Both the position numbers and the translations under genes were made by a program. From positions 1 through 51,269 of the forward strand of contig CADDZC010000021.1 in assembly GCA_902812365.1 (NCBI GenBank): a stretch of 51,269 nt of DNA, read 5' to 3'. The stretch comes from Acidobacteriota bacterium (GTDB taxonomy: Bacteria > Acidobacteriota > Terriglobia > UBA7540). Of this stretch, positions 13,499 through 30,741 are shown in pieces; within the stretch, counting starts at the first letter, position 1, and every line of letters starts with the position of its first letter. A model generated the notes under the pieces. It did not search any database. It had not been told where the DNA came from and saw only the letters and a program-made list of their open reading frames with translations.

Positions 13499-14731
13499 AT
13501 GCCGGCGATGCTGGGTTTTCGACGTTGCGCTGTCTTTCCAGAGGTGAAGTTGGCTTTCCATCTCGGTACCGGAGTGGCCCTGGTGTGGATGCTGGCGGGC
13601 GCCGGGGCGCGCGGGCAGGAGACAGCGCGGAACCTCTTCACGGAGGCTCAAGCAGCGAAGGATCGCGGCGATTGGCGGGAAGCGGAAAGCAAATACCGGG
13701 AACTGATCCGGCGGTCGCCCGATCTGGCCAATGCCTATCACAATCTGGGGATCGTCTACCTGGCAGAACATAAGAACCGCGAGGCGGCCGACGTGCTGGC
13801 GCAGGCCGTGAAGCTGGCGCCGCGCGAGGCCGGAGGGTGGTTCCTTCAGGGCCTCGCCTATTACCGGTTGTATGCGCCGAGCAAGGCGGTGGCCGCCTTT
13901 CAGACCGCCCGGCGCTTGAATCCGGCCGATAAGAATGTGCAACTCTACTTGGCGAAGGCGCAGATCCAGATGCGCGACTACGAGGGAGCGGAGCGAACGC
14001 TGCAGCAACTGGCCCAGTCCAGCCCCAACGATCCTGTGGTGCTCTACAACCTGGGCGTTGCGCACATGAAACTGATGCTCGAGGATATCGACCGGCTGAG
14101 CAGGGTTGCTCCCCAGTCCTATCTGTTGCTCCTCATCCTCGCCCAAGATGCCGAAACCCGGGGAGACGACGAGGCTGCCGCCCGGTTTTACCGACAAGCA
14201 CTGCACGCCAATCCGGCGGCGGTTGGGGTCCATTACGCGCTGGGCAGCATTTATGCCAATTCCGGAAAGTACGATGACGCCGCGCAGGAATTTCGAGCCG
14301 AGCTCCAGCTCGACCCTCATGACTCGCTGGCGCTGTGGAAACTCGGCGAAATTGCGTTGCGCACGGATCCTCGCTCGGCTTGCCGTTATCTCGAGAGCGC
14401 ATTAACGTTGACTCCAGATTTGCCGCAGGCTCGCCTGGCTTATGGGCGCGCCCTGCTGCAGCTCGGAGAGCCCGAGAAAGCAATCCAACAGTTCGAGCGG
14501 GTGGAGCGTCTGGCACCGGAGGAAGACTCCGTTCATTACCACCTGGCCACCGCTTATCGCCAGCTCGGACACCTCCAACAAGCGGAGGCCGAGATGGCCC
14601 GTTTCCAGCAACTGGCTAGGAAAAAATCGGCGATTACCCAGGCGGCGGCACGGCGCCAGGTCGAAATGACCCAAGATGCGGTGGGCCCGCCGCCCGACTT
14701 CGACACCTCCCGCAATCCCGTCCATCACTGA
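13499..14731 (+). CDS. Secreted TPR-repeat protein before TonB receptor 2
   Basis: A 410-residue protein with a signal peptide (FHLGTGVALVWMLAGAGARGQ) and about ten tetratricopeptide repeats from residue 45 to 385, for example LANAYHNLGIVYLAEHKNREAADVL and VGVHYALGSIYANSGKYDDAAQEF. GGAGG 6 nt before ATG 13499 fixes the start; the open frame begins at a TTG 24 codons earlier. It follows the GH30-like gene by 78 nt and precedes TonB receptor 2. The pattern of a secreted TPR gene next to a receptor gene recurs at receptor 3. It is probably a periplasmic or surface scaffold or binding partner; no catalytic motif is seen. Confidence 0.83.
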   Translation: MPAMLGFRRCAVFPEVKLAFHLGTGVALVWMLAGAGARGQETARNLFTEAQAAKDRGDWREAESKYRELIRRSPDLANAYHNLGIVYLAEHKNREAADVLAQAVKLAPREAGGWFLQGLAYYRLYAPSKAVAAFQTARRLNPADKNVQLYLAKAQIQMRDYEGAERTLQQLAQSSPNDPVVLYNLGVAHMKLMLEDIDRLSRVAPQSYLLLLILAQDAETRGDDEAAARFYRQALHANPAAVGVHYALGSIYANSGKYDDAAQEFRAELQLDPHDSLALWKLGEIALRTDPRSACRYLESALTLTPDLPQARLAYGRALLQLGEPEKAIQQFERVERLAPEEDSVHYHLATAYRQLGHLQQAEAEMARFQQLARKKSAITQAAARRQVEMTQDAVGPPPDFDTSRNPVHH

Positions 14732-14743
14732 GGCGCATTTTTC

Positions 14744-14759
14744 GTTCAACCTAATGAAC
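14744..14759. promoter_or_regulatory. Palindromic operator GTTCAACCTAATGAAC (IclR-box 3)
   Basis: This third copy of GTTCAA-N5-TGAAC begins 13 bp after the TPR stop codon. Its first base is 67 bp before TACGAT at 14811, the same distance and the same -10 hexamer as at receptor 1. Confidence 0.65.
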
Positions 14760-14788
14760 ACTGCCGGCCTGTCCGGCCCTTCGCCCCC

Positions 14789-14816
14789 TTGCTCACCGCC
14801 TGAGCGCGAGTACGAT
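14789..14816 (+). promoter_or_regulatory. Putative activator-dependent promoter of TonB receptor 2
   Basis: TTGCTC (14789-14794, 3 of 6 matches), a 16-bp spacer and TACGAT (14811-14816). The -35 is weak, but hexamer positions relative to the IclR-box are identical to those at 6530-6557. The expected transcript start is near 14823. Confidence 0.45.
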
Positions 14817-14822
14817 GGGATC

Positions 14823-15240
14823 GGTTGTTGGCAACGCACCGGGGCTCTGAGGTGGCTTGCGGGTCGGGAGGCGGCAGCACCGCGAAAATTCACGGAGTGG
14901 CTGGTCTTTCAACCCAACTCAGCCTGGCACGTTGGCGGAAAAGCGCTTCTGCCACCGTCATCCTGAGCGCGGGAAGGCTCGATCGGTGATGTCCGGACGC
15001 CGTCGCGAGGGCTTCTCACGAACGGGTTCGAGCCAAAAGGATTACGCGACGACGTCCCGCAGAGCCGAGCGGCGGATGTGAGCTTCGACTGGCGAAGGAA
15101 TACCGGGATGCTTCGCTCAACATCGCAGTTCGGCCTTTTTTCCGAAACCTGACGGCAGAGTCGGCTCCTTGACGGCTGCGAAAGTGAATTGCGTCCCTTG
15201 TCGTGGGGGCCGAGGTGGGTCGCTCAAAAGGGAGGCAACG
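14823..15240 (+). other. Gene-free leader (about 418 nt) of TonB receptor 2
   Basis: No credible coding region lies between the predicted promoter and the receptor ATG. It contains a hairpin at 14933-14954 (8-bp stem with one G-U pair, loop AAGCGC) whose centre AAGCGCTT matches the core of the LacI-type operators at 29424 and 29602. GTCATCCTGAGCG at 14957-14969 recalls a dispersed non-coding motif I associate with some Acidobacteria. No T tract follows the hairpin. A function as leader or regulatory RNA is possible but not shown. Confidence 0.35.
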
Positions 15241-18200
15241 ATGAATCGTAACGCAACCGTGATCGGTGCCCGGTTGAGCCGGCGGGCAATCGGATGCGAG
15301 CCCGAACGAGCTGCATGCACCTCGGCGGCGGCGCGGACCTTTTGGGTTCGCCTTCTTGGCCGCTGCGCTTTCCTCTGGATGCTGTTCATCATGGCCGTCC
15401 CGCGGGCCGGGAGCCAGCAACAGGCGACCCTTTCAGGCACCGTCACCGACCCCACGGGGGCGCTGATTCCCGGCGTGACGATCCGGATGACCAATATCCA
15501 GACCCAAGTGACCGTGTCAGCGATCACGAACTCCACCGGCTACTACGTCGTGGCCAATTTGATTCCGGGCGTCTACTCGCTGACGGCGCAGAAGCAAGGA
15601 TTCAAGACCGCAACCCGGTCAGAGATCACCCTGCAGGTTGCCCAGGCGGCGACGGTGGATATCCAGCTTGAACTGGGCCAAACCTCCCAGGAGATTTCGG
15701 TTCGCGGCACGGCCCCGCTGGTCGAGAGAAGGGACGCCACCATTGGGCAGGTGATCGGGCCAACGGCGATGGTCGAGCTGCCGCTCAACGGCCGGAATTA
15801 TTTCAATCTGGCGGAGCTGAGCCCGGGAGTCACCACTTACGGATTGCGCAGTTTCTATTCCAGCGCCATCAACGACTACGGCACCTCGTTTAACTCCGGG
15901 AGCGCCGGCGAAGACCGGAATGGTTTCACCCTGGACGGCGCGGACATCGAAGCGCACTTGATCAACGGCTCCTATGTTCCCTCCATCGATGCCGTGCAGG
16001 AATTCAAGATTGAAACCACCCCTTACGCGGCGGATCTCGGGACTACTCCCGGCGCGCAGATCTTGCTCGTGACGAAAAGTGGCACGAATCAGTTCCATGG
16101 CGATGTCTACGAATTTCTTCGCAACAGCTCGCTGAACGCCTATAACTTCTTTGATAATCGGAGCCTGCCGGTTCCGGAGCTGAGGAAGAACCAGTTCGGA
16201 GGGACGCTCGGGGGGCCGGTGGTGAAAGATAAATTGTTCTTCTTTGGAAGTTACGAAGGACACCGAGAACGCATTGGCGAGACCTTTTTCGGAACCGTGC
16301 CCACCCGATTGATGAGACAAGGTATCTTTACGGAGGTCCCGGAGCTCATCTTTAATCCCTTCACCACCCAACCCTGCGCCAGTTGCCCTTCCGGGGTGTC
16401 CCGAACGCCCTTTGCGAATAACACCATTCCCGCCAATATGATCAGCACCGTGACGGCAACGTTTATGCAATCCCAATTTCCGCTGCCCACCAGCCCCGGC
16501 ATTGCGAATAACTTTGCTGCCAACAAAGCGGATCGGAACACCCGTGACCAGACGAACGTCCGCATCGACGATACCCGGCCCAAGGACGCAATATTTGGCC
16601 GTTTCAGCTTCAATAACTCCAAATTGTACGCTGCGAAACAGACGTTCGGCGGCGGCGCGCTACCCGGCTTTGGAGACAATGATGTGGTCACCACCACCAA
16701 CGTGACCGCGGCTGACACCCACACCTTGAGTCCCACCACGATCCTGCAAGGTCAAGTCTCTTTCCTGAGGATGTGGTATGACCTCCTTCCTGAACAGTTG
16801 GGCAACGACCTCAACTCCAAGCTGGGCATCATCGGCGTCATGCCCAACGAACCCTTCATAGCCAGTGTCGCCGGGATGACGAACCCCGGGTCGGACCCCT
16901 TTGTTCCGGAGTTCCGAGCAGACAACCAGTACTCTGATGTCGCCAAGCTGACCAAGGTCGCCGGCAAGCATACCTTGCACGTGGGAGGCGAGTACGATCG
17001 CTGGCAAGTGTTTATGAATGCGGCGCCAGCCTTCCCCCAAGGTGACTTCAGTTTTGACGGCTCTTTCACCAAAGACCCCAACGCCCCGTCTACTACGGGA
17101 TTTGGTTTTGCCGATTTTCTGCTGGGTTATCCCGTGTTTGCACAAAGCCAGTCGGGTTATAGCGGGGGCTACATGTTCCGGACCAACTGGCGATGGTGGG
17201 TCAACGATGAGTGGCGGGCGACCTCCAACCTGACCCTGACGCTGGGGGTTCGCTGGGAGTACGACGGACCCTTTACGGAGAAGTATAACCATTTATCGAA
17301 CTTCGATCCCTCTACCGGTCAGCTGGTGATTGCCGGCAAAAACGGCGTCTCCGCCTCAGCCAACGTTCAGCCGGACCTCGACAATTACGCCCCCCGCTTT
17401 GGCTTTGCTTATGCCATCCCCGGGCATCGAACTACCGTGCTCCGCGGCGGCTATGGAGTCTTCTATGACGTGATGCAGGAAAACTGTTGCGAGGGGACAC
17501 GTACCAATCCGCCGTTCTCCACTTTTCCACAATACTTCGGAGGGAACACAACCAGGGAGATCCCCAGCGTGGCCATCCAGGATGCCTTGTCCCCGAACCG
17601 CGCCACGCCCGCAAAACCGTTCATACAAGGGCTGGACTTTCATTTGCAAAACGGATATCAGCAGCAAGCCTCCTTGGGAGTTCAGCATCAGTTTGGGGCC
17701 AGTTGGGTGGGGGAGATCGACTACAATTGGCAGAAAAACACCAAGTTCTTTGCCAGCCGGAACCTGGATGCGCCCTTCGCTCATGGTACGTTCATATTGC
17801 CGTACCCTCAATTCAGCGGTATCACCTATTTGACGAACCTTGAATACGGCAATTACCACGCCCTACTGGCGAGGTTGGAGAAGCGGTTTTCGCGGGGACT
17901 GACGGCTCTGTCCTCGTTTACCTGGTCCAAATACCTTGACAATATCACGGCGGGCGATGCGGCCGGCGCCCCGGGCGACCCCGGGTTCCAGAACGCTTAC
18001 TGTTTCCGTTGCGATTACGGGCCCTCGGCCTCCGATTACGAGCGCCGCTTTGTGCAGAGTTTCGTCTATCTGCTCCCCTCGGCCAACCGCGGCGGAGCTT
18101 GGGCCAGGAATGTAATCGGCGGCTGGCAGGTTTCGGGTATCTTTACCTACCAGTCCGGCTTTCCCGTCACCCCTCTCATTTCCTTTGACAACAGCGAAAC

Positions 18201-18567
18201 TCTCACCTTTGCCGACCGGCCCAATGTGGTGCCCGGAGTGGCGCGCTACCCGGCCGGCACCCATGATCCTTCCCGCTGGTTCAATCCGGCGGCTTTCGTC
18301 GTCGCGCCTCCGCTTCAATATGGCAACGCGGGAAAGGGGATTCTCCGGGGACCGAATTTGGTCGATCTGGATGCCGCGCTGATGAAGAATTTCCGCCTGT
18401 CGGAGAGGTTCGAACTGCAATTCCGCGCCGAGGGCTTTAACCTGGCCAATCACCCGAACTTCGCGGATCCCAATCCATTCGTCGATATTCCGTCAGTGGC
18501 GGGAAGTATTACGTCCACAACTACGACAGCCCGCCAAATCCAGTTCGCGCTGAAGCTCCTGTTTTAG
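15241..18567 (+). CDS. TonB-dependent outer-membrane receptor 2 (Oar-type)
   Basis: A 1108-residue receptor. A long basic N-region and hydrophobic segment (CAFLWMLFIMAVPRAGS, about 45-61) form the signal peptide. A carboxypeptidase-regulatory-like domain follows (about 62-145, beginning ATLSGTVTDPTGALIPGV), then a plug (about 160-290; ELPLNGRNYFNLAELSPGV is typical) and a barrel ending IQFALKLLF. GGGAGG 5 nt before ATG 15241 matches the ribosome site of receptor 1. The sequence is clearly different from receptor 1, so this is not a recent duplicate. A PHP-domain hydrolase gene follows after 52 nt. An IclR-box and promoter more than 400 nt upstream probably place it in the same regulon as receptor 1. 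The substrate is unknown. Confidence 0.93.
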   Translation: MNRNATVIGARLSRRAIGCEPERAACTSAAARTFWVRLLGRCAFLWMLFIMAVPRAGSQQQATLSGTVTDPTGALIPGVTIRMTNIQTQVTVSAITNSTGYYVVANLIPGVYSLTAQKQGFKTATRSEITLQVAQAATVDIQLELGQTSQEISVRGTAPLVERRDATIGQVIGPTAMVELPLNGRNYFNLAELSPGVTTYGLRSFYSSAINDYGTSFNSGSAGEDRNGFTLDGADIEAHLINGSYVPSIDAVQEFKIETTPYAADLGTTPGAQILLVTKSGTNQFHGDVYEFLRNSSLNAYNFFDNRSLPVPELRKNQFGGTLGGPVVKDKLFFFGSYEGHRERIGETFFGTVPTRLMRQGIFTEVPELIFNPFTTQPCASCPSGVSRTPFANNTIPANMISTVTATFMQSQFPLPTSPGIANNFAANKADRNTRDQTNVRIDDTRPKDAIFGRFSFNNSKLYAAKQTFGGGALPGFGDNDVVTTTNVTAADTHTLSPTTILQGQVSFLRMWYDLLPEQLGNDLNSKLGIIGVMPNEPFIASVAGMTNPGSDPFVPEFRADNQYSDVAKLTKVAGKHTLHVGGEYDRWQVFMNAAPAFPQGDFSFDGSFTKDPNAPSTTGFGFADFLLGYPVFAQSQSGYSGGYMFRTNWRWWVNDEWRATSNLTLTLGVRWEYDGPFTEKYNHLSNFDPSTGQLVIAGKNGVSASANVQPDLDNYAPRFGFAYAIPGHRTTVLRGGYGVFYDVMQENCCEGTRTNPPFSTFPQYFGGNTTREIPSVAIQDALSPNRATPAKPFIQGLDFHLQNGYQQQASLGVQHQFGASWVGEIDYNWQKNTKFFASRNLDAPFAHGTFILPYPQFSGITYLTNLEYGNYHALLARLEKRFSRGLTALSSFTWSKYLDNITAGDAAGAPGDPGFQNAYCFRCDYGPSASDYERRFVQSFVYLLPSANRGGAWARNVIGGWQVSGIFTYQSGFPVTPLISFDNSETLTFADRPNVVPGVARYPAGTHDPSRWFNPAAFVVAPPLQYGNAGKGILRGPNLVDLDAALMKNFRLSERFELQFRAEGFNLANHPNFADPNPFVDIPSVAGSITSTTTTARQIQFALKLLF

Positions 18568-18619
18568 GCCGGCGGGAGCGATGGGTGACCGAGTTTAATC
18601 TAGTGAAGGGGTGATCTTC

Positions 18620-20038
18620 ATGAAGGGGCGGCGAATTGCGGAAGGGGTGCGAATCGTTATTTCTATTCTCCTCGGATTCGGCATCATGGCCACCCGCGCG
18701 GCCGGGAAACAGCCTGCCGACCGGCCGGAGCCGCCACATTGGTTTGCCGGAGATCCTCATGTCCATCGGGGCATTGGGTGCGGCCGTGCCAACGAAAAGG
18801 AGATGCTGGCTCCGCAGCAGCTTCTCGAGATGATGAAGGTGAACAACCTCGCGGTTATCTCCGTCCTCGCCGACGCCGGCAATGGTGAAATAAGGTATGC
18901 CGATCAGGACCTCGCCATGATCACCGGGCAGGATAATCCGGCTTCAACGCCCGAGCGGATCATCCACTGGGACGCTGAGTGGCACTATGATCCGGAAGGC
19001 GTGACGTTTCCAAGGAAGGTCATTGGAGGCCACTTGATTTTGCTTGGCCTGAAGCAGGGCGGGCGGCCATACGCCGAATATACGTTTCCCATCTTCGCTT
19101 GGGCCAAACAACAAGGCGGCATCGGGGGATTCGCACACCTGCAATACCTTCCCCTCGCTTTCTATCCGCCTCCCGACGGTATTCCTCAGTCGCTGGACTG
19201 CTGCGCGCCGCTCGAATATCCCGTGGAAACGGCTCTCGGAAGCTCCTCGTTCGTGATGGAGGACGTCCGCGGCAATGACAATGCGCTCGAAGCCTACTAT
19301 CGGTTGTTGAATACCGGTTTTCGGCCTGGCCTCGCTGCCGCAACCGACTATTCGTGCAACGACAATGAGCCTCTGGGAACGCTGCTGACCTACGTGCGGA
19401 TTCCGGATGGCAAGCTGACTTATAACCAGTGGATTGACGGGATCGCGCGAGGGCGAACCGTGGTCTCCCGCGATGCCCACAGGGAATTCTTGAGCCTGAA
19501 AGTGAATGAGACGGCCCAGCCGGGAGATGAGATCCGCTTGGAGCAGAAGGGCGCGGTGCGGGTGCGGATCGAGTGGCGGTCGGTGAACCCCGCTCTCGGC
19601 CGGATCGAGTTGGTCGAAAACGGCGCGGTGGTGGCGTCCGAGACGGCCGCGGCCGCTCCGGGTTCGCCGGCGGTGATGGAGACAACAGCGGATTTTCGTC
19701 AGAGCGGGTGGCTCGCAGCCCGCCGGATGGACTGGCAGGCTGGGCATCAGACGCAAACCGGGGCGGTATTCGTGATCGTCAAAGGCGCTCCGATTCGGGC
19801 CAGCGCCGACGATGCTCGGTTTTTCATCCACTGGATCGATAATCTGATCCGGCAAACTTCACCCGGCGGCCCGTGGAACCGGTATTTCACGAAGGATCTT
19901 GCGGCCGCGCAAGAGCGATATTGGAAGGCTCGGGCGGTCTTCGTGGAGAGAGCCCGGGAAGCCGAAATGCAGGCTCGGGAAGCGAACCGGCAAAATGCGG
20001 CGATGGAGGATGCCGCCCGCAAGAGGGAGCGCCGTTGA
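18620..20038 (+). CDS. Secreted PHP-domain metallohydrolase (CehA/McbA-like)
   Basis: A 472-residue protein with a signal peptide (IVISILLGFGIMATRAAG) followed by a PHP-type domain opening with WFAGDPHVH (D45, H47, H49), the first metal-binding motif of this fold. Later segments such as GGIGGFAHLQ and AAATDYSCND look like further metal-site strands. A beta-rich C-terminal part (about 290-400) and a charged, probably coiled C-terminus (AREAEMQAREANRQ) follow. CehA/McbA-type members hydrolyse esters or carbamates, and others are phosphoesterases, so the reaction here is open. AAGGGG 8 nt before ATG 18620 supports the start. It lies 52 nt after receptor 2 and is probably co-transcribed with it. 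Confidence 0.82.
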   Translation: MKGRRIAEGVRIVISILLGFGIMATRAAGKQPADRPEPPHWFAGDPHVHRGIGCGRANEKEMLAPQQLLEMMKVNNLAVISVLADAGNGEIRYADQDLAMITGQDNPASTPERIIHWDAEWHYDPEGVTFPRKVIGGHLILLGLKQGGRPYAEYTFPIFAWAKQQGGIGGFAHLQYLPLAFYPPPDGIPQSLDCCAPLEYPVETALGSSSFVMEDVRGNDNALEAYYRLLNTGFRPGLAAATDYSCNDNEPLGTLLTYVRIPDGKLTYNQWIDGIARGRTVVSRDAHREFLSLKVNETAQPGDEIRLEQKGAVRVRIEWRSVNPALGRIELVENGAVVASETAAAAPGSPAVMETTADFRQSGWLAARRMDWQAGHQTQTGAVFVIVKGAPIRASADDARFFIHWIDNLIRQTSPGGPWNRYFTKDLAAAQERYWKARAVFVERAREAEMQAREANRQNAAMEDAARKRERR

Positions 20039-20138
20039 AGGTAAAAGCGAGGCGTATTCACGACGTCCGCAGAGAGTCGAGGGAGCAAGGCCTGCCGCGG
20101 CCCATGCTCCCCTCGAATCCCGCGTGGGCGAGGTCACG

Positions 20139-21785
20139 ATGTTCTACAGAATTCCGTTCAAAGGGAGTCTGGCTGGGGCGGTGGTGAGCGTCGGTTTGGC
20201 GTTGGCCGCGCTCTGCAGGATTGGCGCCCTCGCTGCCTCGCCGGGCGCCGTTTTTAACGGCCACAAAGTGATTCTGGACAGCCAAGGCAAGATCATTCCG
20301 TGGTCGGGGCCGGCGGACAAGGCGTACGATCATTTTCTGCGGCTGCGCTGGGATTTCATCAAGACCAGAGTCCCCGCGTGCCCCGGTCCGCCCCCGCGAT
20401 CCTCCTACCCGCAATACTACTTTTATTGTGCCTACTGGAGCCGGCACGGGGTATTGGAGCCCGACACGTGGATGAACGACGTGGGCGAAAAGCTCCCGAA
20501 CTGGTTTGAATCGGCGCGCTTGTACTATGCCTACACCGGCGACCTCGCCGTGATGGCCATAGTGAAAAAGTTCATGGACTACACCCTGGCGCACGGGACG
20601 AGTCCTCCAAACTTCGCCTGGCCTAATTTCCCTTATACTGCCGCCAACGCCGGCGATCTGGAGTACCGGGGCTTTACCAGCGCCAAGAGGTTTTTCCCCC
20701 ACGAGGTCCAGGTGGGGTATGCGGGCGATATGGGTTGGGCCTATTACCGGATGTATCTTTTCAGCGGCGACCGGCAATATCTGGCCGCCGCGCTCAGCGT
20801 GGCCGATACGCTGGCTCGTAAGGTGCGCGCCGGCAATGCCGCTCAGTCCGCCTGGCCGGACCGCGTCATTTTGGACACCGGCAAGGTGACCTCCCAATAT
20901 GGAACCCACTGGACCCATAGTTACATGCTTTTCGACCAACTGATCAGGGCAAAGGTCGGCGATGTGAATGCCTATGAGGATGCCCGAGCCAAAGTGCGGG
21001 ACTTCCTTCGGCAATATCCTCTGAAGACAGGCTACTGGGCCGACGGACATACGGATGTCTCCGTGTACGGTCCTACCTATAAGAGTAACACCGCCGCCAG
21101 CGACTTCACTTTGGCGCTTTTCGATTACCCCGAACTGGACCCCGACTGGCGCCAGGACGTCCCCCGGCTGATTCAGTGGACGGAAGACAACTTCGTATAC
21201 CGCTCGGCCCCTGGCGAGCCGGCCACTCAATGGGGAGCTAACGTCGTGGGGGAGCAGGATTCGTTCCTGGCCAAGATGGATTATCAGACGGCCCGTTACG
21301 CGGCGGAGTGTGCCCGCTGGTATGCGGTTTCGGGCGATCCCGCCTATAAGGAAAAGGCCTACCGGTCGCTCAACTGGGTGACTTACTGCAACAAGCCGGA
21401 CGGAGAGGGAATCGAAAGCCCGGTAAGCCAAGGCATTTCCAACTGGTGGTCGGACCTCTACGGCGAGTGTCCGCGGATGTTCTATCCGGCCTTGGCGGCG
21501 GTTCCCGAATGGGCTCCGCCGGGGGAAAACCACATTCTGTATTCCGATTCGGTGCTGACGGGGGTTGTTTACGCCGCCGGAAAGGTGCAATACACAGCCA
21601 CTCAGGAGCCGGGTACGGAATATCTGCGCCTCGCCTTTCGCCCGCGCCGGGTCCGCTTGAACGGCGTGAACCTGTCTTTGCGATCGGATTTGAATGCGGA
21701 AGGCTATACCGAGAGGGATCTCGGGCATGGAGATTGCGCCGTTAGTATTAAGAGAACGTATCGGGGTCGGGTCGCCATCGAATGA
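20139..21785 (+). CDS. Secreted protein, likely helical-barrel carbohydrate enzyme
   Basis: A 548-residue protein with a signal peptide (GAVVSVGLALAALCRIGALAA). GAGG 5 nt before ATG 20139 fixes the start, 100 nt after the PHP gene; the open frame extends upstream over the PHP coding end. The body alternates helices with short aromatic and acidic loops (WFESARLYYAYTGDLAVMAIVKKF, WGANVVGEQDSFLAKMDYQTARYAAECARWY). That is the pattern of six-hairpin (alpha/alpha) barrel glycosidases, lyases and epimerases, ending in a beta-rich segment (about 470-548). I cannot assign a family or catalytic residues. Its position at the end of the receptor 2 operon suggests it processes the imported glycan in the periplasm or at the surface. 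Confidence 0.75.
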   Translation: MFYRIPFKGSLAGAVVSVGLALAALCRIGALAASPGAVFNGHKVILDSQGKIIPWSGPADKAYDHFLRLRWDFIKTRVPACPGPPPRSSYPQYYFYCAYWSRHGVLEPDTWMNDVGEKLPNWFESARLYYAYTGDLAVMAIVKKFMDYTLAHGTSPPNFAWPNFPYTAANAGDLEYRGFTSAKRFFPHEVQVGYAGDMGWAYYRMYLFSGDRQYLAAALSVADTLARKVRAGNAAQSAWPDRVILDTGKVTSQYGTHWTHSYMLFDQLIRAKVGDVNAYEDARAKVRDFLRQYPLKTGYWADGHTDVSVYGPTYKSNTAASDFTLALFDYPELDPDWRQDVPRLIQWTEDNFVYRSAPGEPATQWGANVVGEQDSFLAKMDYQTARYAAECARWYAVSGDPAYKEKAYRSLNWVTYCNKPDGEGIESPVSQGISNWWSDLYGECPRMFYPALAAVPEWAPPGENHILYSDSVLTGVVYAAGKVQYTATQEPGTEYLRLAFRPRRVRLNGVNLSLRSDLNAEGYTERDLGHGDCAVSIKRTYRGRVAIE

Positions 21786-21847
21786 ACGCGCCGAAGGGCC
21801 GAGGTGTTGCTCATGATGGACTCAGCGGGCCAAGACCCCCGGGCGAC

Positions 21848-21871
21848 CAACGCCGCCGGCCACGGGCGTTG
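21848..21871. terminator. Weak hairpin between convergent genes
   Basis: CAACGCC and GGCGTTG (7-bp stem, 10-nt loop) lie in the 123-nt gap between genes that converge at 21785 and 21909. There is no T tract on either strand, so intrinsic termination is doubtful. Confidence 0.25.
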
Positions 21872-21908
21872 AACCGCGGAGAAGGCTCGTTCGAGGAGAA
21901 ACGGCCAA

Positions 21909-24308
21909 TCAGGTGTCCCACTGCACCCGGTAGACGGAGTAGTTGTCGGCCTCGAAGATCCACTGTCGTCCGGACGCACGCGAGGGAACGGGACGGCCGG
22001 CTGCGTCGCTGACCAAGAATCTTCGCGGCGGGGAACCGTTCGAAAAGGTGAGGATGGCCTGAAGGGTTCGCCCATCACCGCGGCGATACTGCAAGTCGAA
22101 CATCTGCTGCCGATAGCGAATATTGCGAAGCCCGAACCCGTGCCCCTCGCCGAGCAACGCTTCTGGAAGGGCGGGGCTGAGGGTAAACCAGAAATGCCCG
22201 GGTTCATTCCCTTCTCGGAATCCGAACAGGCTGCGGATGATATGGGCGGGCAGCGTGGCGCCCCAGCCGTAGCCTTCTCCGCCCCGTGCGCCCTCGAGAC
22301 CCCACACTTCACAGCTGACTCCGGGCCATCCCAGCCTCGGACCGGGGGAGGCTTGGCGCCGATCCATCGAGCGGTAGACACGATCAGCGATCCCATAGAG
22401 CACTCGTGACAGCAGCTGGCGCTCACCGGCGACCCACAGGGACTCGGCATAAGCGAGGACGTGGGGCGGCCACTCCAGCCAATACCGGCTGTCGGATTCG
22501 TAAGCCCGCATCGCCGGAATCATGGCGCGAACTTGTTCCGGGGTAGCGACCCGGCACATGACCGGGCCGACCTGGGTCACTTCACGGCGGCCCGGAATGA
22601 CGATGGGCTTGCCGGAGCGCGCGTCCACGTCGTAGAACCAGTCTCGGTACCACAGCCGGCGGGTCTTTTCGGCGTAGGTCGAGGCCACGCGAGCCCAGCG
22701 CTCGGCTTCAGCCGACTTTCCCAACAGCCGCGAGTAGTGTTCCACGCTGCGCGCGGCGTGAGACATCGCCGCCTGAAGCTCGGCGACGCGGACAAAATCA
22801 ATCAATTCTCCGCCCGTCGGCTGCCGCAGCAGAAAGCGGCTGGATGCGTCCATGCCCGATTCCCAACTGCACTTGGCGATCACCCAGCCATCACCGTCGG
22901 TACGATGCTGGAGCGTCCAATCGAGGTGGGCGATGAGAAAAGGATAGAGCTGCTCCAGCCACACCCGGTCCGCCGTCCTGAGGAACACCGACTCGAGGCA
23001 GTAAAAGGGATAGCACCACTGCAGCGACGTGCCGCATTCGCTGCCGTCGGCGGCCACCATGTTCATAGTGCCGTCTTCCCGCATGCACGGCACATTCGGG
23101 GCCAGCGCATCTTGAAACTGGCCGAGCAGCACGGCTTTCGCGGTTTCAGGATCGGCGTAAGCGAGCGTCCACATGTCGATGGAGGTTTCGGCGAGGACAT
23201 TGCGAGGAGCCTGAATCTGCATGGCATCCCAGCGATGTCGGTAGAGTCCGAGGGGCTGGCGAACCATCGTCCGCAGGGTTTCGAAGTCGTATACCCAGGA
23301 GTTCCTCCAGTGCTCGGGGAAATCGCCCTCGAGGCGTGGCGCCGAGCTCCAGAAGCGATCGTCGTCGTTTCGCTTTTCCAAAAAGACCGAAGCGGCGGCC
23401 GGCCGCGCCGCGCGGGCACTCTCGATGGCGGCCTGCCGGTTGGGGGCTCGGCTCAAAAACACGTGGCACGAGGCCGTTCGCCCGCTCGGGACGCGGAGCG
23501 CCCAGGCGGCCGCGGCGAGCAGAGGATCGGGGTAGTAGGCGCTGGCCGCCTTCAATCCCCCGGACGGCTGGGACATCCAATTTTTGAGAGCCGCTTCGGA
23601 GGCGGCCACACAGCCGGCAGCGGCCGGTAAGTCGGCGGTCAGAGCGAACACCGGACCCGCGGCGAACGGACGCAGCACGCTGCAGCCACGGTCTGGGTCG
23701 TAGAGCCCGGCGATGCCGTCTCGACCCCACCACGGCGACGGGCCGAGCTCGAGTCGCTGAACGGCGAACACGGTCGGTGCGGCCTCGGAATCGGAGTCGT
23801 TGCGGAAGGTCAGCCCGCAGGCCAGGGTGCGCTCGTCGAACTGGAAAAACGCGGCCGAGATGTCGAGGGGCGGCAGCCTGAGGCTGAGCGTCAAAATGCT
23901 CTTCGAGTGATGCGAAGCGCTGACGGCGATGCCGGCGCCGGTGAAGTCGTCCTCATCGTAATAGACCTTGCCGCCGATGCCCAGCCCGAGGCGAAGAATC
24001 GAGCGGTAGACGGAATTCTTGTCGTAATCGAAGTACCCGCCGGGCCCGGCGGGGTAGTAGAGCCCCATTCCAAGGGGTGGGACGGATCGGAAGATGCCGC
24101 TGGGGTGGAGCGCCCAGGAATGGTAAGGATTATCCAGGTAGCCGAACGGCGTGTAGGAGCCCGCCGGGAAGCCGTTGCCGGCAGTCGGCGTTGGGGCCGG
24201 GCCAGCCGGCGCGGTCATGACCGCGCCCGGCGCCAGAGCCTTCTCGCCTACCCAGGGTAGGGCTGAACTGGCAGCCATCAGTGCCTTCGAGAATTCGCGT
24301 CGAGTCAT
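21909..24308 (-). CDS. Tat-exported GH63/GH37-like glycosidase
   Basis: A 799-residue enzyme. A twin-arginine signal (MTRREFSKALMAASSALPWVG) indicates export in folded form. Residues about 50-330 form a beta-rich N-domain. From about 330 to 720 lies an (alpha/alpha) barrel with the GH63/GH37 hallmark WESGMD (482-487), whose Asp487 corresponds to the catalytic acid. Further helices such as NVLAETSIDMWTLAYADPETAKAVLLGQF are usual for the clan. A glycine/tryptophan stretch (GGEGYGWGATLPAHI) near the end lies where the second catalytic residue normally sits. GGAG 9 nt upstream supports ATG 24308. It is the last gene of the TPR-receptor-glycosidase operon, 120 nt after TonB receptor 3. Linkage specificity cannot be told; alpha-glucosidase or another exo-glycosidase is possible. 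Confidence 0.82.
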   Translation of the reverse strand: MTRREFSKALMAASSALPWVGEKALAPGAVMTAPAGPAPTPTAGNGFPAGSYTPFGYLDNPYHSWALHPSGIFRSVPPLGMGLYYPAGPGGYFDYDKNSVYRSILRLGLGIGGKVYYDEDDFTGAGIAVSASHHSKSILTLSLRLPPLDISAAFFQFDERTLACGLTFRNDSDSEAAPTVFAVQRLELGPSPWWGRDGIAGLYDPDRGCSVLRPFAAGPVFALTADLPAAAGCVAASEAALKNWMSQPSGGLKAASAYYPDPLLAAAAWALRVPSGRTASCHVFLSRAPNRQAAIESARAARPAAASVFLEKRNDDDRFWSSAPRLEGDFPEHWRNSWVYDFETLRTMVRQPLGLYRHRWDAMQIQAPRNVLAETSIDMWTLAYADPETAKAVLLGQFQDALAPNVPCMREDGTMNMVAADGSECGTSLQWCYPFYCLESVFLRTADRVWLEQLYPFLIAHLDWTLQHRTDGDGWVIAKCSWESGMDASSRFLLRQPTGGELIDFVRVAELQAAMSHAARSVEHYSRLLGKSAEAERWARVASTYAEKTRRLWYRDWFYDVDARSGKPIVIPGRREVTQVGPVMCRVATPEQVRAMIPAMRAYESDSRYWLEWPPHVLAYAESLWVAGERQLLSRVLYGIADRVYRSMDRRQASPGPRLGWPGVSCEVWGLEGARGGEGYGWGATLPAHIIRSLFGFREGNEPGHFWFTLSPALPEALLGEGHGFGLRNIRYRQQMFDLQYRRGDGRTLQAILTFSNGSPPRRFLVSDAAGRPVPSRASGRQWIFEADNYSVYRVQWDT

Positions 24309-24428
24309 GAAACTGAGCTCCGAGCGAGGCGGTGACCGCCCACCAGCCGGCGCGCGGCCGGATCGCTGCGCAGCGGCAACCTCCGCCACGGTCGGCTCTG
24401 GCCGGCGCGAAACATCCTGGCCGTCTGG

Positions 24429-27400
24429 CTAGAACACCAATCTCAAACCCAACTGAAGCTCGCGCGGGTTATAGGTGCTGGTCGCCTTGCCAAAAGTGGT
24501 GCCGGCGTCCGCCAAGTTGGAGTCCACGCCGCTGAGATTCACGCGGTTGAAAAGGTTGAAGGCGTCGGCGCGGACTTGCAGCTTGAAGCGGTCGCGATAC
24601 ATGTTGAGCGTCTTGCGCAAGGCCAGGTCTGTGCTGGCGAAGCCCGGGCCAATGTAAACGTTACGGCCCAAACTGCCGTCGGTGCCGAGCGGTGGAGCGG
24701 GAAACGCGCTGGCCGGGAAGACGCCCTGGATAAACTTGCTGTTATTCGGGTTCGTGATGCGCAGCCCGAAGCTCGGGGCGTTCGGCCGGTCGTTGGTGGT
24801 GCCGTCGGCGTTCCAATCGCATCCTGCCGCCGGATTGGCGAAGTTAAAGCTGCTTCCGCAGAAGACATTGAACGGAGCGCCGGACTGCAGCAGCAGCAAG
24901 GGAGTCACTTCCCAGCCGCCGGCCACGGCTTGCGCGAAGCGATTGGAGCCGGCGAGCCGCGGCAGAGCCCAGGTGCCGTAAGCGACGAATTTCTGAGCAT
25001 GGTGGAAATTGGCGAGCCCGCGCTCGAGATAGCGATGCTGCACGTCCACGGGATCGTTGCCGTCGACGGAGGTGTCATCGATGGTTTTGCTCCACGTGTA
25101 TACGGCGTTCAAGCTGACGTTGTCCGACATGCGGTGCTCGACCTGGAACGAGAGAGCGTCAAAGGCGGAATTGGCCTGGGACTGCAGGTAGCTGATATTG
25201 GCGAAGCTCTGGTTGTAACCGTGGAACGTCCCATTTGTCAGCAGATCGCCGGCGAAGCGGTTGATGTTGTTGATCCAGGCGAGGTGGCGAGCCGCCGAAC
25301 CCAAATCATCGATCTCGAGCATCCAGTTGCTGGTCAACTGATACTGTACCCCCTGGAACCAGTTTAGGACATAAGGAATCTGAAAATTGGGATCGACCGC
25401 GGTCACCCCGACCCGTGCGCCCCGGATGCCGTTGTGGGAGTCCAGGCCGGTGGCGAAGGCGGGATTGTTGGGAAATCCGAAATTCGGTCCGGGCCCGCCG
25501 ATGGAATAGACGATCGGGGTGTTGAAGATGGGTCCGGCCGACACATTCGCGAGCAGCGGCGGATTGGTGGCGAGACTCTCCCAGTCGCCGTTGGGAACGC
25601 GATCGTAAGTCACGCCGAAGCCGCCGCGCAGGACCAGCTTGCTCTTGGGGTTCCAAGAGTAACCGAAGCGGGGAGCGAAGTTGAAGTTGGAGCTCTTCCA
25701 GGGGTCCGGACTCAGTTGCATGCTGCCGTTGGCAATGCGTTGGGCCAGGCTCGTGCCGCTGCCGAAGATGAAGTTGGCGAATGTACCGAAGTTTTCCGTG
25801 GGATGGTGGTAATCCTCCCAGCGGAGGCCGAGGTTCAGGGTGAGCCGGGGACCGACCTTGTAATCATCCTGGATGAACGCCGCCGACTCGAACGTCCGCT
25901 CCTGGTAATCGGCGCCCTTGGCCGTGCCGGTTTTGGGGTCCACACTTAGGTTTTCGGCAATAGGCTGGTCGATGGCAAAATCCAAGATGTTCTGGAAGGT
26001 GTAAGCCGGCTTCGACACCGAGGAAAAATCGTCATGGCCGCGACGGAACTCGACGCCCACCTTCAGGTTGTGCTTGCCCTGATACTTGGTGAGAATGTCT
26101 TTCCATTCGTAGTTCATCTGGAAGAAACCGAACGGGATGCTGGAAAAGATCCCGAAGCCGGCCACTCCGTCGTTGAGGCTGATTTGGGGGACGCTCGGGT
26201 TCCTCCCCGGCACGAATGAGCCGGTGCGGGAAAACCCGAACTTCGCTTCGTTCATCATCGTGGGCGAGATGATGTGGGTCTCGTCGATGTTGAAGAAGCT
26301 GTCGCCTTCGGGGAAGTTGAAGCCGAAGGCTGGGCGCGTGCTCGGGTTCTCGGCGAGGATTCGAGTTTGCATAAAGCTGGTGTAAAAGCGGTCTTTCTCG
26401 CTGAAGTTGTAATCGAACCGGCCGAGGTAGTGGTCGCCGTCGTCGAACAGCGGCACGGCGTAGACGGTGGTGCCGACGACCGGCAAGCTCGTTGGGAATT
26501 GCGACGCCTTGGCGAAGAATCCGTCGCCGTATTGGCCGGCGGTCACAAAATTGGCACTCGCATAATGGACGGGCGGATAGAGCTGGAACAGCCGGGCGGA
26601 CAAGTTCGCCGGGTAGGTACTCTCGACGTAGTTGGCAAAAGCCTGGGTCTCGACCGTGGACACGACGGCGGGATTGCCGGTCGTGGCGGACGGCCCGCCC
26701 CGCTGGCGCAAGCCCGCGTACGAGCCGAAGAAGAACGCTTTATTTTTTCTGATCGGGCCGCCCAGGGAGCCGCCGAACAGGTTTTTGTCGAAGCGGGGCT
26801 TGTAGGCCTTGCCGCTCGGGCCGGCCGGGGAAGTATTGGAGAAGAAGCTGTTGGCGTTCAGACGCGCCGTGATGCCGTCATAGTAGGCGTCCCCGTGGAG
26901 CTCGTTCGTGCCGCTTTTGGTGGTGGCATCCAGCTGGAAGCCGCCGCTGCGCCCGTGCTCGGCGGAAAAGTTGTTGGTGGTCACGTGCAGCTCGGCCAGA
27001 TCGTCAAGGCTGGGGGCGATATTCATGGTGCCGCCATTGGGGGTTTCGGTGACGGTCGTCCCGTCAATCTGATAGTTGTTGGATGAAACCCGCAGACCGT
27101 TGGCGTTTACCGCAGCGCTGTCGGCGACGCTGAAGATATCGCTGTTGCCCGGGGTGACGCCGGTGACTCCCGGTAGCAGTTGGATGGCGGTCAGGGGATT
27201 CTCGCCTTCAATCGGCAAATTTTCGAGCGCCCGGCGGCCGAGGTCTTCGGAAAGACGCGCCTGCTCCGTGTTCAGCAGCGGAGCCGTGACGCTCACCGTC
27301 ACGGTTTGCTTGAGGTTGCCGACATTGAGCGTCAGGTTGACCCCCTTGAGCTCCTCCGTGTGCAGGACTAGCTCGGCCGTCTGCGCTTTGGCGAAGCCGG

Positions 27401-27656
27401 GCTTTTCGGCGCTCAAAACGTAGGTGCCCGACGGAAGGTTGGTGATGTAGTAGACGCCGGCTTCGTTTGACACGGCCGTGTAGGAGATTCCGCTCGCGGT
27501 GTTCTGTGCGGTGACCTTAACCCCGGGCACCGCCGCGCCACTGGAGTCGGAAACGACTCCTTCGAAACCGGCGTTGTACTGGGCCTGCGCAGGCCTCGTT
27601 GCTCCGAGGACGGCGAGGATCAGGACGAGCAGAGTTCCGGCAAAAGCCTTGTGCAT
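24429..27656 (-). CDS. TonB-dependent outer-membrane receptor 3 (Oar-type)
   Basis: A 1075-residue receptor. A signal peptide (AFAGTLLVLILAVLGATRPAQAQ) is followed by a carboxypeptidase-regulatory-like domain (about 28-110, starting GFEGVVSDSSGAAVPGV), a plug (about 125-260; LENLPIEGENPLTAIQLLPGV, then NNFSAEHGRSGGFQ) and a barrel ending ELQLGLRLVF. AAGGAGG lies 4 nt before the ATG at 27656 and only 12 nt separate it from the stop of the upstream TPR gene, so the pair is co-transcribed and probably coupled. The operon promoter carries a LacI-type operator. With a GH63-like glycosidase downstream and a rhamnose symporter in the same locus, a glycan substrate is likely. Confidence 0.94.
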   Translation of the reverse strand: MHKAFAGTLLVLILAVLGATRPAQAQYNAGFEGVVSDSSGAAVPGVKVTAQNTASGISYTAVSNEAGVYYITNLPSGTYVLSAEKPGFAKAQTAELVLHTEELKGVNLTLNVGNLKQTVTVSVTAPLLNTEQARLSEDLGRRALENLPIEGENPLTAIQLLPGVTGVTPGNSDIFSVADSAAVNANGLRVSSNNYQIDGTTVTETPNGGTMNIAPSLDDLAELHVTTNNFSAEHGRSGGFQLDATTKSGTNELHGDAYYDGITARLNANSFFSNTSPAGPSGKAYKPRFDKNLFGGSLGGPIRKNKAFFFGSYAGLRQRGGPSATTGNPAVVSTVETQAFANYVESTYPANLSARLFQLYPPVHYASANFVTAGQYGDGFFAKASQFPTSLPVVGTTVYAVPLFDDGDHYLGRFDYNFSEKDRFYTSFMQTRILAENPSTRPAFGFNFPEGDSFFNIDETHIISPTMMNEAKFGFSRTGSFVPGRNPSVPQISLNDGVAGFGIFSSIPFGFFQMNYEWKDILTKYQGKHNLKVGVEFRRGHDDFSSVSKPAYTFQNILDFAIDQPIAENLSVDPKTGTAKGADYQERTFESAAFIQDDYKVGPRLTLNLGLRWEDYHHPTENFGTFANFIFGSGTSLAQRIANGSMQLSPDPWKSSNFNFAPRFGYSWNPKSKLVLRGGFGVTYDRVPNGDWESLATNPPLLANVSAGPIFNTPIVYSIGGPGPNFGFPNNPAFATGLDSHNGIRGARVGVTAVDPNFQIPYVLNWFQGVQYQLTSNWMLEIDDLGSAARHLAWINNINRFAGDLLTNGTFHGYNQSFANISYLQSQANSAFDALSFQVEHRMSDNVSLNAVYTWSKTIDDTSVDGNDPVDVQHRYLERGLANFHHAQKFVAYGTWALPRLAGSNRFAQAVAGGWEVTPLLLLQSGAPFNVFCGSSFNFANPAAGCDWNADGTTNDRPNAPSFGLRITNPNNSKFIQGVFPASAFPAPPLGTDGSLGRNVYIGPGFASTDLALRKTLNMYRDRFKLQVRADAFNLFNRVNLSGVDSNLADAGTTFGKATSTYNPRELQLGLRLVF

Positions 27657-27668
27657 GGTTCCTCCTTC

Positions 27669-29387
27669 TTATTTCTCGGCGCCCGCCGACGCGTTGGCGG
27701 GGTAGTGACTGGGCGGCCCCGGCGTCATATCGGCGGCTTGGGCGGCGAGTAGGGACTGCCCGACGGCCTCGATGCGTTGAATCTCTTGGCGATGCTCGCG
27801 GTCGACCTGGAGGATCTCCGCCATGCCCTCCTGTCGGCGACCTTCGCGGAGATAAGTTCGGCCCAGCAAATAGCGGGCGCTGCTGAAGCTGCGGTCAGCT
27901 TTGAGGGCCGCTTGGGCTTCGCGTTCTGCTGCCGCAAAATGGCCCGCGTCGTATTCCATCCGCGCCAGATCGTAGTGCGAGTGCGGGAAGTCCGGATTTA
28001 AACGGATGGATTCAATCAGTTCCGACCGGATCCGCGCCGCGACCGACCGCATCTGGGGCTGGCTGAGCTCCTGGCGGTGTTGCCGCAGGAGGAGCCCGGC
28101 GTAAAGATAATGAACCAGGTAGCTGTTTGGGCAGTCGTGCAGGGCTGCCTCGGCGGCGCGCAAAGGTGCCTGATAGGAAGCGTCGACCATGGTGTCGGCG
28201 ATTATGAGCGTGGTGTGGCCGAGTGGATTGCCAGGCTGGACGGCCACGGCCGCCTCGAGGATCGGAACGGCTTCCTTCTCGCGCCCGCTCAGCGCTAGCA
28301 CCGTGCCGAGCTGAACTTTCACCGGGTACGTGTCAGAGACGAAACGTAAGCCTTCGCGGAGTGTTTGTTCCGCTTCTTCAAAACGCCGGTGCTCGGCGTA
28401 AAGCCACGACAATTGCAGGTAGGGCTGGTTGTCGGCGGGATTGGCTAGGATCGCCCGGCGGTACGACTCGACCGCCTCGGTGGGGTGGTGGTTCTGCTGT
28501 TCGATCCACCCGAGTAAGTCATAGAGCGGCGCTTGGTCCTTCGCGGGGGGGAGCGCGCTCTCGAGCGTTCGGACCGCGGAATCCGGCTGCCCAGCTGCCC
28601 ACTGCGCCCGCGCCAGGGCGAGCTCCAGCTTCTCGTCGCCGGGAGAATGCCGCAGGGCGAACGCGAGCTGAACCGCTGCGTCGCGCCCATCGTCGAGAGC
28701 GAGCAGGGCCAGCCCTACGGCAGCCTGACTTTGGGCATCCAGCGCGGCGTTCCCGATTAGGCGGCGATAATCGGCGCGTGCGGCCTCGCGTTCGCCGGCA
28801 TCTTCTTCCGCCCGGGCGAGCCACAGCCGGACGCTGGGGTCGTGAGGGGCGAGCTGCAAGGATCGCCGAAGGGGTGCGACGGCCTCCGCCGCCCGCCCCG
28901 CCGCGGCCATCGCCAGTCCCAGAAAACGCCATGCGAGGGCGTCGGTCGGCCCCAGTCGTGTGGCTTCGGTGAGGGCACGTGCGGCTTCAAGAAATCGGCC
29001 TTGCTGGTATTCCAGTAGACCCAGGTTCTTGTGCGCGGCTGCCAGCCGGGGATCGAGCTGGATGGCACGTCGGTATTCTTGGGCTGCCTTCGAAGGTTCA
29101 TTGAGCGCGAACCACGTATTGCCCAAGGCATTGGCCACGCGGGCGTCACGCGAGCGGAGTTCCGCCGCTTGTTCGAAATACTGCAGAGCTTCCGCCGTTC
29201 GTCCCTGCTGGAACGCTTTCAGTCCGAGAAGGTAAGGATCGGCGGCCACGCCGGGCTTAGCGGTGGCTCTGTTTACGGCCCCCAAGCCCAGCGAGAACGC
29301 CGCCAGCCCGGCCGCCGCGCCCGCGGCAATCAGCCTCACTCTCCGGGACCAGCCACGTCCCTCGCGGCGGAACGGGAACTCTTTCAT
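27669..29387 (-). CDS. Membrane-anchored or secreted TPR protein, first gene of the LacI-controlled operon
   Basis: A 572-residue protein. A basic N-terminus and hydrophobic segment (RLIAAGAAAGLAAFSLGLGAV, 19-39) serve as signal or anchor. About thirteen tetratricopeptide-like repeats cover residues 52-545, for example ARVANALGNTWFALNEPSKAAQEY and PYLQLSWLYAEHRRFEEAEQTL. GGGAGGG lies about 7 nt before the ATG. The stop codon is 12 nt from the start of TonB receptor 3, so this TPR protein is made together with the receptor. I infer a partner role, filling the place SusD holds in Bacteroidetes, but no ligand-binding evidence exists here. Confidence 0.87.
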   Translation of the reverse strand: MKEFPFRREGRGWSRRVRLIAAGAAAGLAAFSLGLGAVNRATAKPGVAADPYLLGLKAFQQGRTAEALQYFEQAAELRSRDARVANALGNTWFALNEPSKAAQEYRRAIQLDPRLAAAHKNLGLLEYQQGRFLEAARALTEATRLGPTDALAWRFLGLAMAAAGRAAEAVAPLRRSLQLAPHDPSVRLWLARAEEDAGEREAARADYRRLIGNAALDAQSQAAVGLALLALDDGRDAAVQLAFALRHSPGDEKLELALARAQWAAGQPDSAVRTLESALPPAKDQAPLYDLLGWIEQQNHHPTEAVESYRRAILANPADNQPYLQLSWLYAEHRRFEEAEQTLREGLRFVSDTYPVKVQLGTVLALSGREKEAVPILEAAVAVQPGNPLGHTTLIIADTMVDASYQAPLRAAEAALHDCPNSYLVHYLYAGLLLRQHRQELSQPQMRSVAARIRSELIESIRLNPDFPHSHYDLARMEYDAGHFAAAEREAQAALKADRSFSSARYLLGRTYLREGRRQEGMAEILQVDREHRQEIQRIEAVGQSLLAAQAADMTPGPPSHYPANASAGAEK

Positions 29388-29691: not shown

Positions 29692-30741
29692 TTGGCAAGA
29701 ATCTATGACGTGGCCGCGCTCGCCGGTGTCTCGACGGCGACTGTGTCGGCGGTGGTGAACGGCCAGAACACGGTTGAGGCCAAGACCCGGCGTCGGGTGC
29801 TGGCGGCGATCAAAAGACTTCACTACCAGCCGAACCTGTACGCGAGCAACCTGGCGCGGGGCACGACGCGGCTGCTGGGGCTGATCGTGTCGGACATCGT
29901 CAACCCTTTTTTTGCAGAGATTGCTTATGCCATTCGCGAGCAAGCTCACGCTCGCGGGTACGAAGTCTCGGTCGGGTCGACGCAGTTTTCGCGCGAGGAT
30001 CTGGTAGCGGCGGTCAAGCGCATGATCGGGCTACGCGTTTCCGGCCTGGCGATCATGACCACGGAGATGAACCCCCAGATCCTTGAGATCCTGCGGGAAC
30101 ACCGAACGCCGGCGGTTTTTGAAGACGTCGGCACGGTGGATGCGACGTTCAGCAATATCCGGATCGACTACGAAGGGGGGATTTTCAAAGCGGTCAAGTA
30201 CCTGGTCGATCTGGGGCACAAGCGAATCCTGTTTGTGCGCAGCTATCCGGACGTCGAGCGGCAGGGGAGTTCCTTCCTCTCTCTCCGCCTGCGCACCCTG
30301 GCATTTCAAAAAGCGGTCCGGCAGTTCCGGTCTGAAGGCATCCAGTCTGAGATTGTCACCTGTCCCGGTCCCGGGCCCCGAGCCGGACAACAGGCGATCC
30401 ATCGCGCCCTCGACCAGCTGAGATTCAGCGCGGCCATCGCCATCGCCGACCCGGTCGCGCTCGGCGTCCTCCGCGGCCTTCACCAGCGCGGCGTGCGCGT
30501 GCCTCAGGACGTGTCGCTGATCGGGTTCGACAACAGTTACTTGTGCGAGTACCTGTGTCCGCCGCTGACCAGCGTTAACATTCCCCGCGCTAAACTGGCG
30601 GAGATGGTGGTCGATTGCCTGGTCCGGAACGTCGAGAACAAAGAGCCGGGTCGCGAGTTGCAGCTCGAGACGGACCTCATTGTTCGGGAATCCACCTCGC
30701 GCATGGCCGAAGGCAGAAAATCGCGAGTGCGGTTCCGCTAG
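29692..30741 (+). CDS. LacI-family transcriptional regulator
   Basis: A 349-residue repressor. A LacI helix-turn-helix occupies residues 3-26 (IYDVAALAGVSTATVSAVVNG), the hinge helix follows (YQPNLYASNLARG), and a periplasmic-binding-protein-like effector domain spans about 60-335 (LGLIVSDIVNPFFAEI near its start, DVSLIGFDNSYLCEYLCPPLTSV near its end). The start is a TTG: GGGAGG lies 9 nt before it, and the only nearby ATG (29660) is in another frame. It diverges from the TPR-receptor-glycosidase operon and converges with rhaT, with one base between the two stop codons. The two AAGCGCTT palindromes in the divergent region are its likely targets. The inducer is probably a sugar from this locus, perhaps rhamnose or a rhamnoside. 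Confidence 0.92.
   Translation: MARIYDVAALAGVSTATVSAVVNGQNTVEAKTRRRVLAAIKRLHYQPNLYASNLARGTTRLLGLIVSDIVNPFFAEIAYAIREQAHARGYEVSVGSTQFSREDLVAAVKRMIGLRVSGLAIMTTEMNPQILEILREHRTPAVFEDVGTVDATFSNIRIDYEGGIFKAVKYLVDLGHKRILFVRSYPDVERQGSSFLSLRLRTLAFQKAVRQFRSEGIQSEIVTCPGPGPRAGQQAIHRALDQLRFSAAIAIADPVALGVLRGLHQRGVRVPQDVSLIGFDNSYLCEYLCPPLTSVNIPRAKLAEMVVDCLVRNVENKEPGRELQLETDLIVRESTSRMAEGRKSRVRFR

Follow-up and report, generated by a model that had tools for sequence, protein, structure and literature searches.

Carbohydrate utilization (CUT) loci containing TonB-dependent receptors have been described in Xanthomonas and Caulobacter (PMC1790865). In the SusC/SusD pairs of Bacteroidetes, a sugar locus encodes a receptor together with a partner, and this partner, SusD, contains four tetratricopeptide repeats (TPRs) that are thought to face SusC (PMC2954216). 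TPR proteins also occur with TonB- and Tol-type envelope machines: CpoB of the Tol-Pal system binds TolA via its TPRs in the periplasm (PMC7391070), and VC1543, encoded in the tonB2 operon of V. cholerae, is annotated as a TPR domain protein and putative component of the TonB system (PMC7600106). Finally, the Oar protein of Myxococcus xanthus is required for the secretion of PopC (PMC6434023).

The locus considered here lies in a 51,269-nt stretch of DNA from an Acidobacteriota bacterium (Terriglobia, UBA7540; contig CADDZC010000021.1), referred to as the window, and is centred on the third of its three Oar-type receptors. Like the CUT loci it has no SusD and places a TonB-dependent receptor together with enzyme-like genes, a regulator of the sugar type and a sugar transporter of the inner membrane; unlike them it encodes a barrel of the Oar type along with a TPR gene that is conserved, and PMC1790865 mentions no tetratricopeptide. 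This pairing of a TPR gene with an Oar-type barrel suggests, as far as sequence can tell, a variant of the CUT loci. CpoB and VC1543 are, like the window TPR protein, exported TPR proteins whose genes accompany those of a TonB- or Tol-type envelope machine, but they go with the energising complex and not with one receptor, and the three repeats and coiled coil of CpoB differ from the roughly 13 helix pairs of the window TPR. The Oar protein of M. xanthus is of the same broad receptor type by name only and is tied to PopC secretion, whereas sugar-import genes accompany the receptor 3 locus. A literature search that covered few subscription journals found no report of TPR-Oar pairing. The genes and sites concerned are the following.

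3014..4303, minus strand: TPR protein in end-to-start overlap with the TPR gene at 4300..5292 (Pfam)
4300..5292 (alternative start 5406), minus strand: TPR protein divergent from iclR (Pfam)
5514..5535: box-like palindrome TTCGTTCAAAGGGTTGAACATA in the intergenic region of iclR and the divergent TPR gene, 2 mismatches
5556..6386, plus strand: IclR-family regulator (Pfam)
6482..6503: box-like palindrome TTTGTTCAACCGAGTGAACAAA ahead of receptor 1, 0 mismatches
6640..10572 (longest ORF from 6583), plus strand: receptor 1, Oar-type TonB-dependent receptor (Pfam)
10783..11925 (longest ORF from 10600), plus strand: phosphotriesterase (PTE)-family protein of the receptor 1 run (Pfam PTE)
11999..13420, plus strand: GH30-like glycoside hydrolase of the receptor 1 run (PDB sequence matches to GH30 xylanases)
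13499..14731 (alternative start 13427), plus strand: TPR protein 13499 (spacing, box position, TPR tree, AlphaFold)
14741..14762: box-like palindrome TTCGTTCAACCTAATGAACACT in the gap that separates TPR 13499 from receptor 2, 3 mismatches
15241..18567 (longest ORF from 15169), plus strand: receptor 2, Oar-type TonB-dependent receptor (Pfam)
21909..24308, minus strand: enzyme-like gene immediately downstream of receptor 3 (synteny)
24429..27656, minus strand: receptor 3, Oar-type TonB-dependent receptor with CarboxypepD_reg and OMP_b-brl_4, founder of the TPR-linked clade (Pfam)
27669..29387, minus strand: TPR protein 27669, 572 aa, predicted exported (Pfam TPR, junction sequence, orthologue in the same place in locus L178, AlphaFold)
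29692..30741, plus strand: LacI-family regulator, transcribed away from the TPR-receptor 3 operon (Pfam, synteny)
30743..31849, minus strand: RhaT-like sugar/proton symporter (Pfam RhaT; kept in L178 and L188)
31830..33971, minus strand: protein with a C-terminal formylglycine-generating-enzyme-like domain (Pfam FGE-sulfatase, synteny)

All three receptors exceed both curated cut-offs, for the N-terminal domain PF13620 and for the barrel PF25183. The enzyme-like gene at 21909-24308 has no family match in Pfam, PDB or NCBIfam. Elsewhere in the window, the gene after receptor 2 (18620-20038) is a CehA/McbA-family metallohydrolase by NCBIfam with no Pfam match, and the translations at 41038-47105 read as an apparent RND efflux operon (pump, adaptor and outer-membrane factor).

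The stop of the TPR gene at 27669-29387 is separated from the start of receptor 3 by 12 nt on the same strand, and an AAGGAGG motif lies one base past that stop (TAAGAAGGAGGAACCATG). This junction confirms what an earlier sequence-only reading had described, namely a receptor 3 gene lying 12 nt after a secreted TPR gene with its ribosome site at the TPR stop, and the short spacing and common strand were counted toward a partnership of the two. A LacI-family regulator and a RhaT-like transporter lie beside receptor 3, as the regulator and inner-membrane transporter of a CUT locus do, and both are kept in two further loci (L178 and L188). The receptor 3 locus is thus read as a CUT-type sugar-uptake locus in which an exported TPR protein serves as dedicated partner of one receptor clade, a reading to which a probability of roughly 0.45 is assigned.

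The frequency of such pairing was assessed on an assembled 1.49 Mb out of the 3.5 Mb of the genome, which took in the surroundings of the detected receptors. Genes were called by script, with a home-made caller and a likewise home-made secretion score, and TPR and Oar genes were marked by HMM. An adjacent TPR gene on the same strand accompanies 9 of 39 full receptors against 2.0 expected, a count reached in 1 of 5000 relabellings. With the window left out the figures are 7 of 36 receptors against 1.5 expected (3 of 5000 relabellings), and with secreted-like genes only, 7 receptors against 2.0 (5 of 5000). By these relabelling tests, TPR-Oar adjacency in this genome exceeds chance. The remaining 30 of 39 full receptors have no same-strand adjacent TPR gene. 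Thus, the proposal that each TonB receptor is paired with a TPR protein holds for receptor 3, where the genes are real, but not for receptor 2 nor for most receptors of the genome. In 6 of the 9 genome pairs the TPR gene is downstream of the receptor, opposite to the receptor 3 arrangement.

When the family was searched with receptor 3, one 81% orthologue and many 32-40% homologues were recovered. On a tree of 133 receptors, whose loci were picked by receptor similarity and not by TPR and part of whose comparison set (fam2) has flanks of 1.5 kb only, an adjacent TPR gene is present at 14 of 21 receptors in the receptor 3 clade as against 14 of 112 elsewhere (Fisher 7e-7). A module composed of a LacI gene divergent from a TPR-Oar-enzyme run recurs in L178, L188, L189 and L191, with receptor identity down to about 32-36%. 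L178 keeps the TPR, receptor, LacI and RhaT genes, the contig end cutting the enzyme, and L188 keeps LacI, RhaT and an enzyme of the 21909 type; homologues of this enzyme lie downstream of the receptor in L178, L185 and L188. In L189, L190 and L191 its place is taken by a homologue of the FGE-domain protein at 31830; the TPR-Oar-enzyme run of L190 comes without a recognised LacI. TPR-Oar adjacency is family-limited and receptor-clade-specific, being conserved in one receptor clade of one family. At four loci a TPR gene that adjoins an Oar receptor also has a further neighbour behind it: a UnbV_ASPIC/FG-GAP gene after the TPR genes at L017:12017-13789 and L181:5646-7361, a GH39 gene after that at L019:6105-7640, and a Pfam-less gene that reads like a VWFA-type protein after that at L015:5428-7587.

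The conserved surroundings also bear on the direction of transport. If the receptor were an exporter and the TPR protein a chaperone or carrier for an exported protein, the requirement of M. xanthus Oar for PopC secretion (PMC6434023) would provide a precedent; a sugar regulator and a sugar importer are nevertheless kept in several genomes and no protease cargo is obvious, which makes this alternative very unlikely. Chance neighbourhood of two abundant gene types would account for the empty phylum sample described below (0 of 46) and for the loss of the receptor 2 pairing in a close orthologue, but it is very unlikely as a general explanation given the relabelling tests, the clade contrast of 14/21 versus 14/112 and the synteny at low identity. 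For receptor 3 it is contradicted, and for receptor 2 chance may still be the explanation.

In the quick TPR tree, TPR 27669 clusters with the TPRs of the module loci and apart from the other TPRs of this genome. The outside loci in that tree were chosen through their receptors, and a count of profile-found TPRs is for this reason the fairer test. When coordinates were compared across eight related genomes, an Oar barrel directly adjoined 29 of the 49 TPRs found with the family profile, on the same strand in 26 cases; excluding the profile's own members leaves 25 of 45, and receptor density gives an estimated expectation of about 5%. Viewed from the receptors, only about 8-12% in these eight relatives have such a TPR, the range arising from a receptor list of 243 entries in these genomes and searches that counted 377 matches. 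The TPR gene is mostly downstream of the receptor in the other pairs and upstream at receptor 3. A profile search with a two-row TPR alignment yielded one real relative, on a Terriglobia MAG contig that is taken to be the L178 locus.

Not every arrangement is tight. In L185 the receptor and enzyme persist and the TPR gene lies beyond the enzyme, adjoining it rather than the receptor, which is itself flanked by an MGH1-like glycoside hydrolase; in L183 and L186 the TPR gene is divergent and two genes from the receptor. Tight TPR-receptor coupling is therefore not required. In this genome, moreover, exported TPR genes occur without an adjacent Oar receptor, including three in tandem at C4:54655-59060, and several adjoin UnbV_ASPIC/FG-GAP genes (C10; C14 and C33 by reading). 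These Oar-free TPR genes and the L185 arrangement favour co-regulation without receptor contact, in which the TPR protein would be a scaffold or folding helper for the locus enzymes or other exported proteins and would share the operon through a common substrate. This explanation is possible, though well short of an even chance: 29 of 49 family-profile TPRs are immediate neighbours of a receptor, whereas the family of the enzyme differs between loci, so that the receptor seems to be the constant element.

Beyond the family the association fades. Across 40 stretches taken from other phylum families, none of 46 receptors has an adjacent TPR gene, in a sample that consists of top-scoring barrels, at most 13 per genome, with other receptor clades under-sampled. 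A Pfam scan of 85 receptor neighbours in the same sample showed no TPR family among the 25 commonest families listed; the commonest neighbour family there is sulfatase (7 of 85; L134-L173). By coordinates, in two genomes outside the family (G061 and G083) a match to the TPR profile and an Oar barrel are arranged head-to-head at a distance of about 1.05 kb. Pairing throughout the phylum is thus unsupported, both by the count of 0/46 and by the lack of a TPR family among the commonest neighbours. The adjacency count proposed by the sequence-only reading accordingly gives a divided answer, with enrichment in the genome (9/39 against 2.0 expected) and none in the phylum sample.

The other two receptors of the window have a different organization. 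Downstream of receptor 1 (6640-10572) and in its orientation come the PTE-family, GH30-like and TPR genes, the TPR gene being last at 13499-14731 and starting 6-78 nt past the GH30-like gene, depending on the start codon chosen. From its stop at 14731 to the start of receptor 2 at 15241 there is a gap of 509 nt, within which lies the box copy at 14741-14762. In the TPR tree, made by a quick method, TPR 13499 falls, with weak support, among TPRs encoded downstream of other receptors. Because of its spacing, the box position and the TPR tree, TPR 13499 most likely closes the receptor 1 run instead of partnering receptor 2. The 67-68% orthologue of receptor 2 (G035) has upstream of it an IclR gene (46% identical) and not a TPR gene; downstream of it (L103) is a gene similar to the penicillin-amidase gene near C23:3734. 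That receptor 2 follows a TPR gene is true of position, but as an operon pair the two were rejected on account of receptor 2's own box, the 509-nt gap and the orthologue without a TPR gene.

Three window sites (5514, 6482 and 14741) resemble TTTGTTCAN6TGAACAAA, where shuffles expect 0.01. The regulator box proposed as common to receptor 1 and the two TPR genes across iclR was thus recovered, together with a third copy at 14741. The whole genome holds one other site with at most 2 mismatches, at C23:3734-3755 (L080:3734-3755), upstream of the penicillin-amidase gene; at other places in the genome, sites with 3 mismatches, as at 14741, are about as frequent as in the controls. The palindrome may mark an IclR regulon, to which both receptor 1 and receptor 2 seem to belong and which may also take in the divergent TPR genes and the penicillin-amidase gene on another contig. 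Alternatively, the 6482 box sits inside an inverted repeat (6475-6510) with perfect 15-nt arms followed by T5, which could be an iclR terminator.

The window TPR proteins match generic TPR families only in Pfam, and all listed matches to named NCBIfam TPR proteins (PilW, YbgF/CpoB, MamA, PrsT and others) fall under the curated cut-offs. Structures were modelled for window proteins and the L198 homologue. The AlphaFold model of TPR 27669 (572 aa, two sequences, mean pLDDT 86) is a TPR superhelix of about 13 helix pairs, and that of TPR 13499 (410 aa, single sequence, pLDDT 85) is also a TPR superhelix. Among the fold matches listed, the nearest are designed TPRs and the TPR domain of OGT; such matches speak to fold, not function. 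Since a long TPR superhelix is a protein-binding fold, it was counted in favour of a partner role. Variation in the TPR family alignment is least around residues 300-370, which may be a binding surface. A crude scan found a lipobox-like site in 2 of the 25 TPRs linked to receptors but not in TPR 13499 or TPR 27669, and on a crude reading some receptor-linked TPR calls have no clear signal peptide, perhaps through miscalled starts. Signal-like N-termini without a lipobox suggest a periplasmic location.

By these features the TPR proteins do not look like SusD. SusD_RagB (PF07980) is absent from this genome and present in 2 of 197 phylum genomes, in keeping with the earlier statement that no receptor of the window is paired with SusD. 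The only two such genes in those 197 genomes (L132:568-1836 and L133:1444-3063) have, as read from translations, lipoprotein-like N-termini and adjoining SusC-like barrel pieces. The four TPRs of SusD mean that the analogy is not empty and that a TPR protein might in principle make similar contact with a receptor, and the SusC/SusD pairs share with the receptor 3 locus a receptor and a TPR-containing partner encoded in a sugar locus. The window TPRs nonetheless have no PF07980 match and, in the crude scan, no lipobox, and they model as a plain superhelix; most receptors have no such neighbour, and a partner beside nearly every receptor, as in the SusC/SusD arrangement, is found in neither the genome (9/39), the relatives (about 8-12%) nor the phylum sample (0/46). 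SusD is not among the listed fold matches of the TPR models, which, with few sequences in their alignments, have helix pairs throughout and no loop-rich subdomain like that of SusD.

Could the TPR protein still be a cell-surface substrate-capture lid doing the job of SusD? The absence of SusD and the TPRs on which SusD itself is built, thought to face SusC (PMC2954216), would fit, but the crude scan found no lipobox in the window TPRs nor in 23 of 25 linked TPRs, the TPR models have no SusD-like loop-rich subdomain and most receptors have no TPR neighbour, so this alternative is unlikely. Of the idea that TPR proteins play the SusD role in Acidobacteria, what survives is a conserved TPR-Oar link (in the genome, at 14/21 in the clade and 29/49 among relatives); its phylum-wide extent and the SusD-like anatomy and location do not. 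Judging from sequence and models, the window TPRs are probably a lineage-specific, periplasm-facing adaptor of a CUT-type locus and not a SusD equivalent.

On the reading of receptor 3 as part of a CUT-type locus with a dedicated TPR partner, a LacI regulator would stand divergent beside the operon of TPR, Oar receptor and enzyme, and the nearby RhaT-like inner-membrane importer would serve sugar uptake. The TPR protein would be exported, apparently not as a surface lipoprotein, and dedicated to the receptor 3 clade, its long superhelix lying at the periplasmic face of the receptor. There it might bind the periplasmic parts of the receptor (the N-terminal CarboxypepD_reg domain or the plug), the locus enzyme or TonB, singly or in combination, and thereby organise the hand-over of the imported substrate. 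For the TPR protein we infer a periplasmic location, binding and an effect on transport. More tentatively, and on balance doubtfully, a dedicated exported TPR adaptor of one Oar clade would add another type of receptor partner to SusD lids and TonB, acting as a periplasmic hand-over or enzyme-docking module for a SusD-free receptor.

Genomes of this Acidobacteria lineage carry about 40-50 Oar receptors each and essentially no SusD. The negative result in the phylum sample guards against a wrong generalisation of the TPR-Oar idea, and the conserved receptor-TPR pair in one clade provides a concrete candidate protein for substrate recognition or hand-over by SusD-free receptors.
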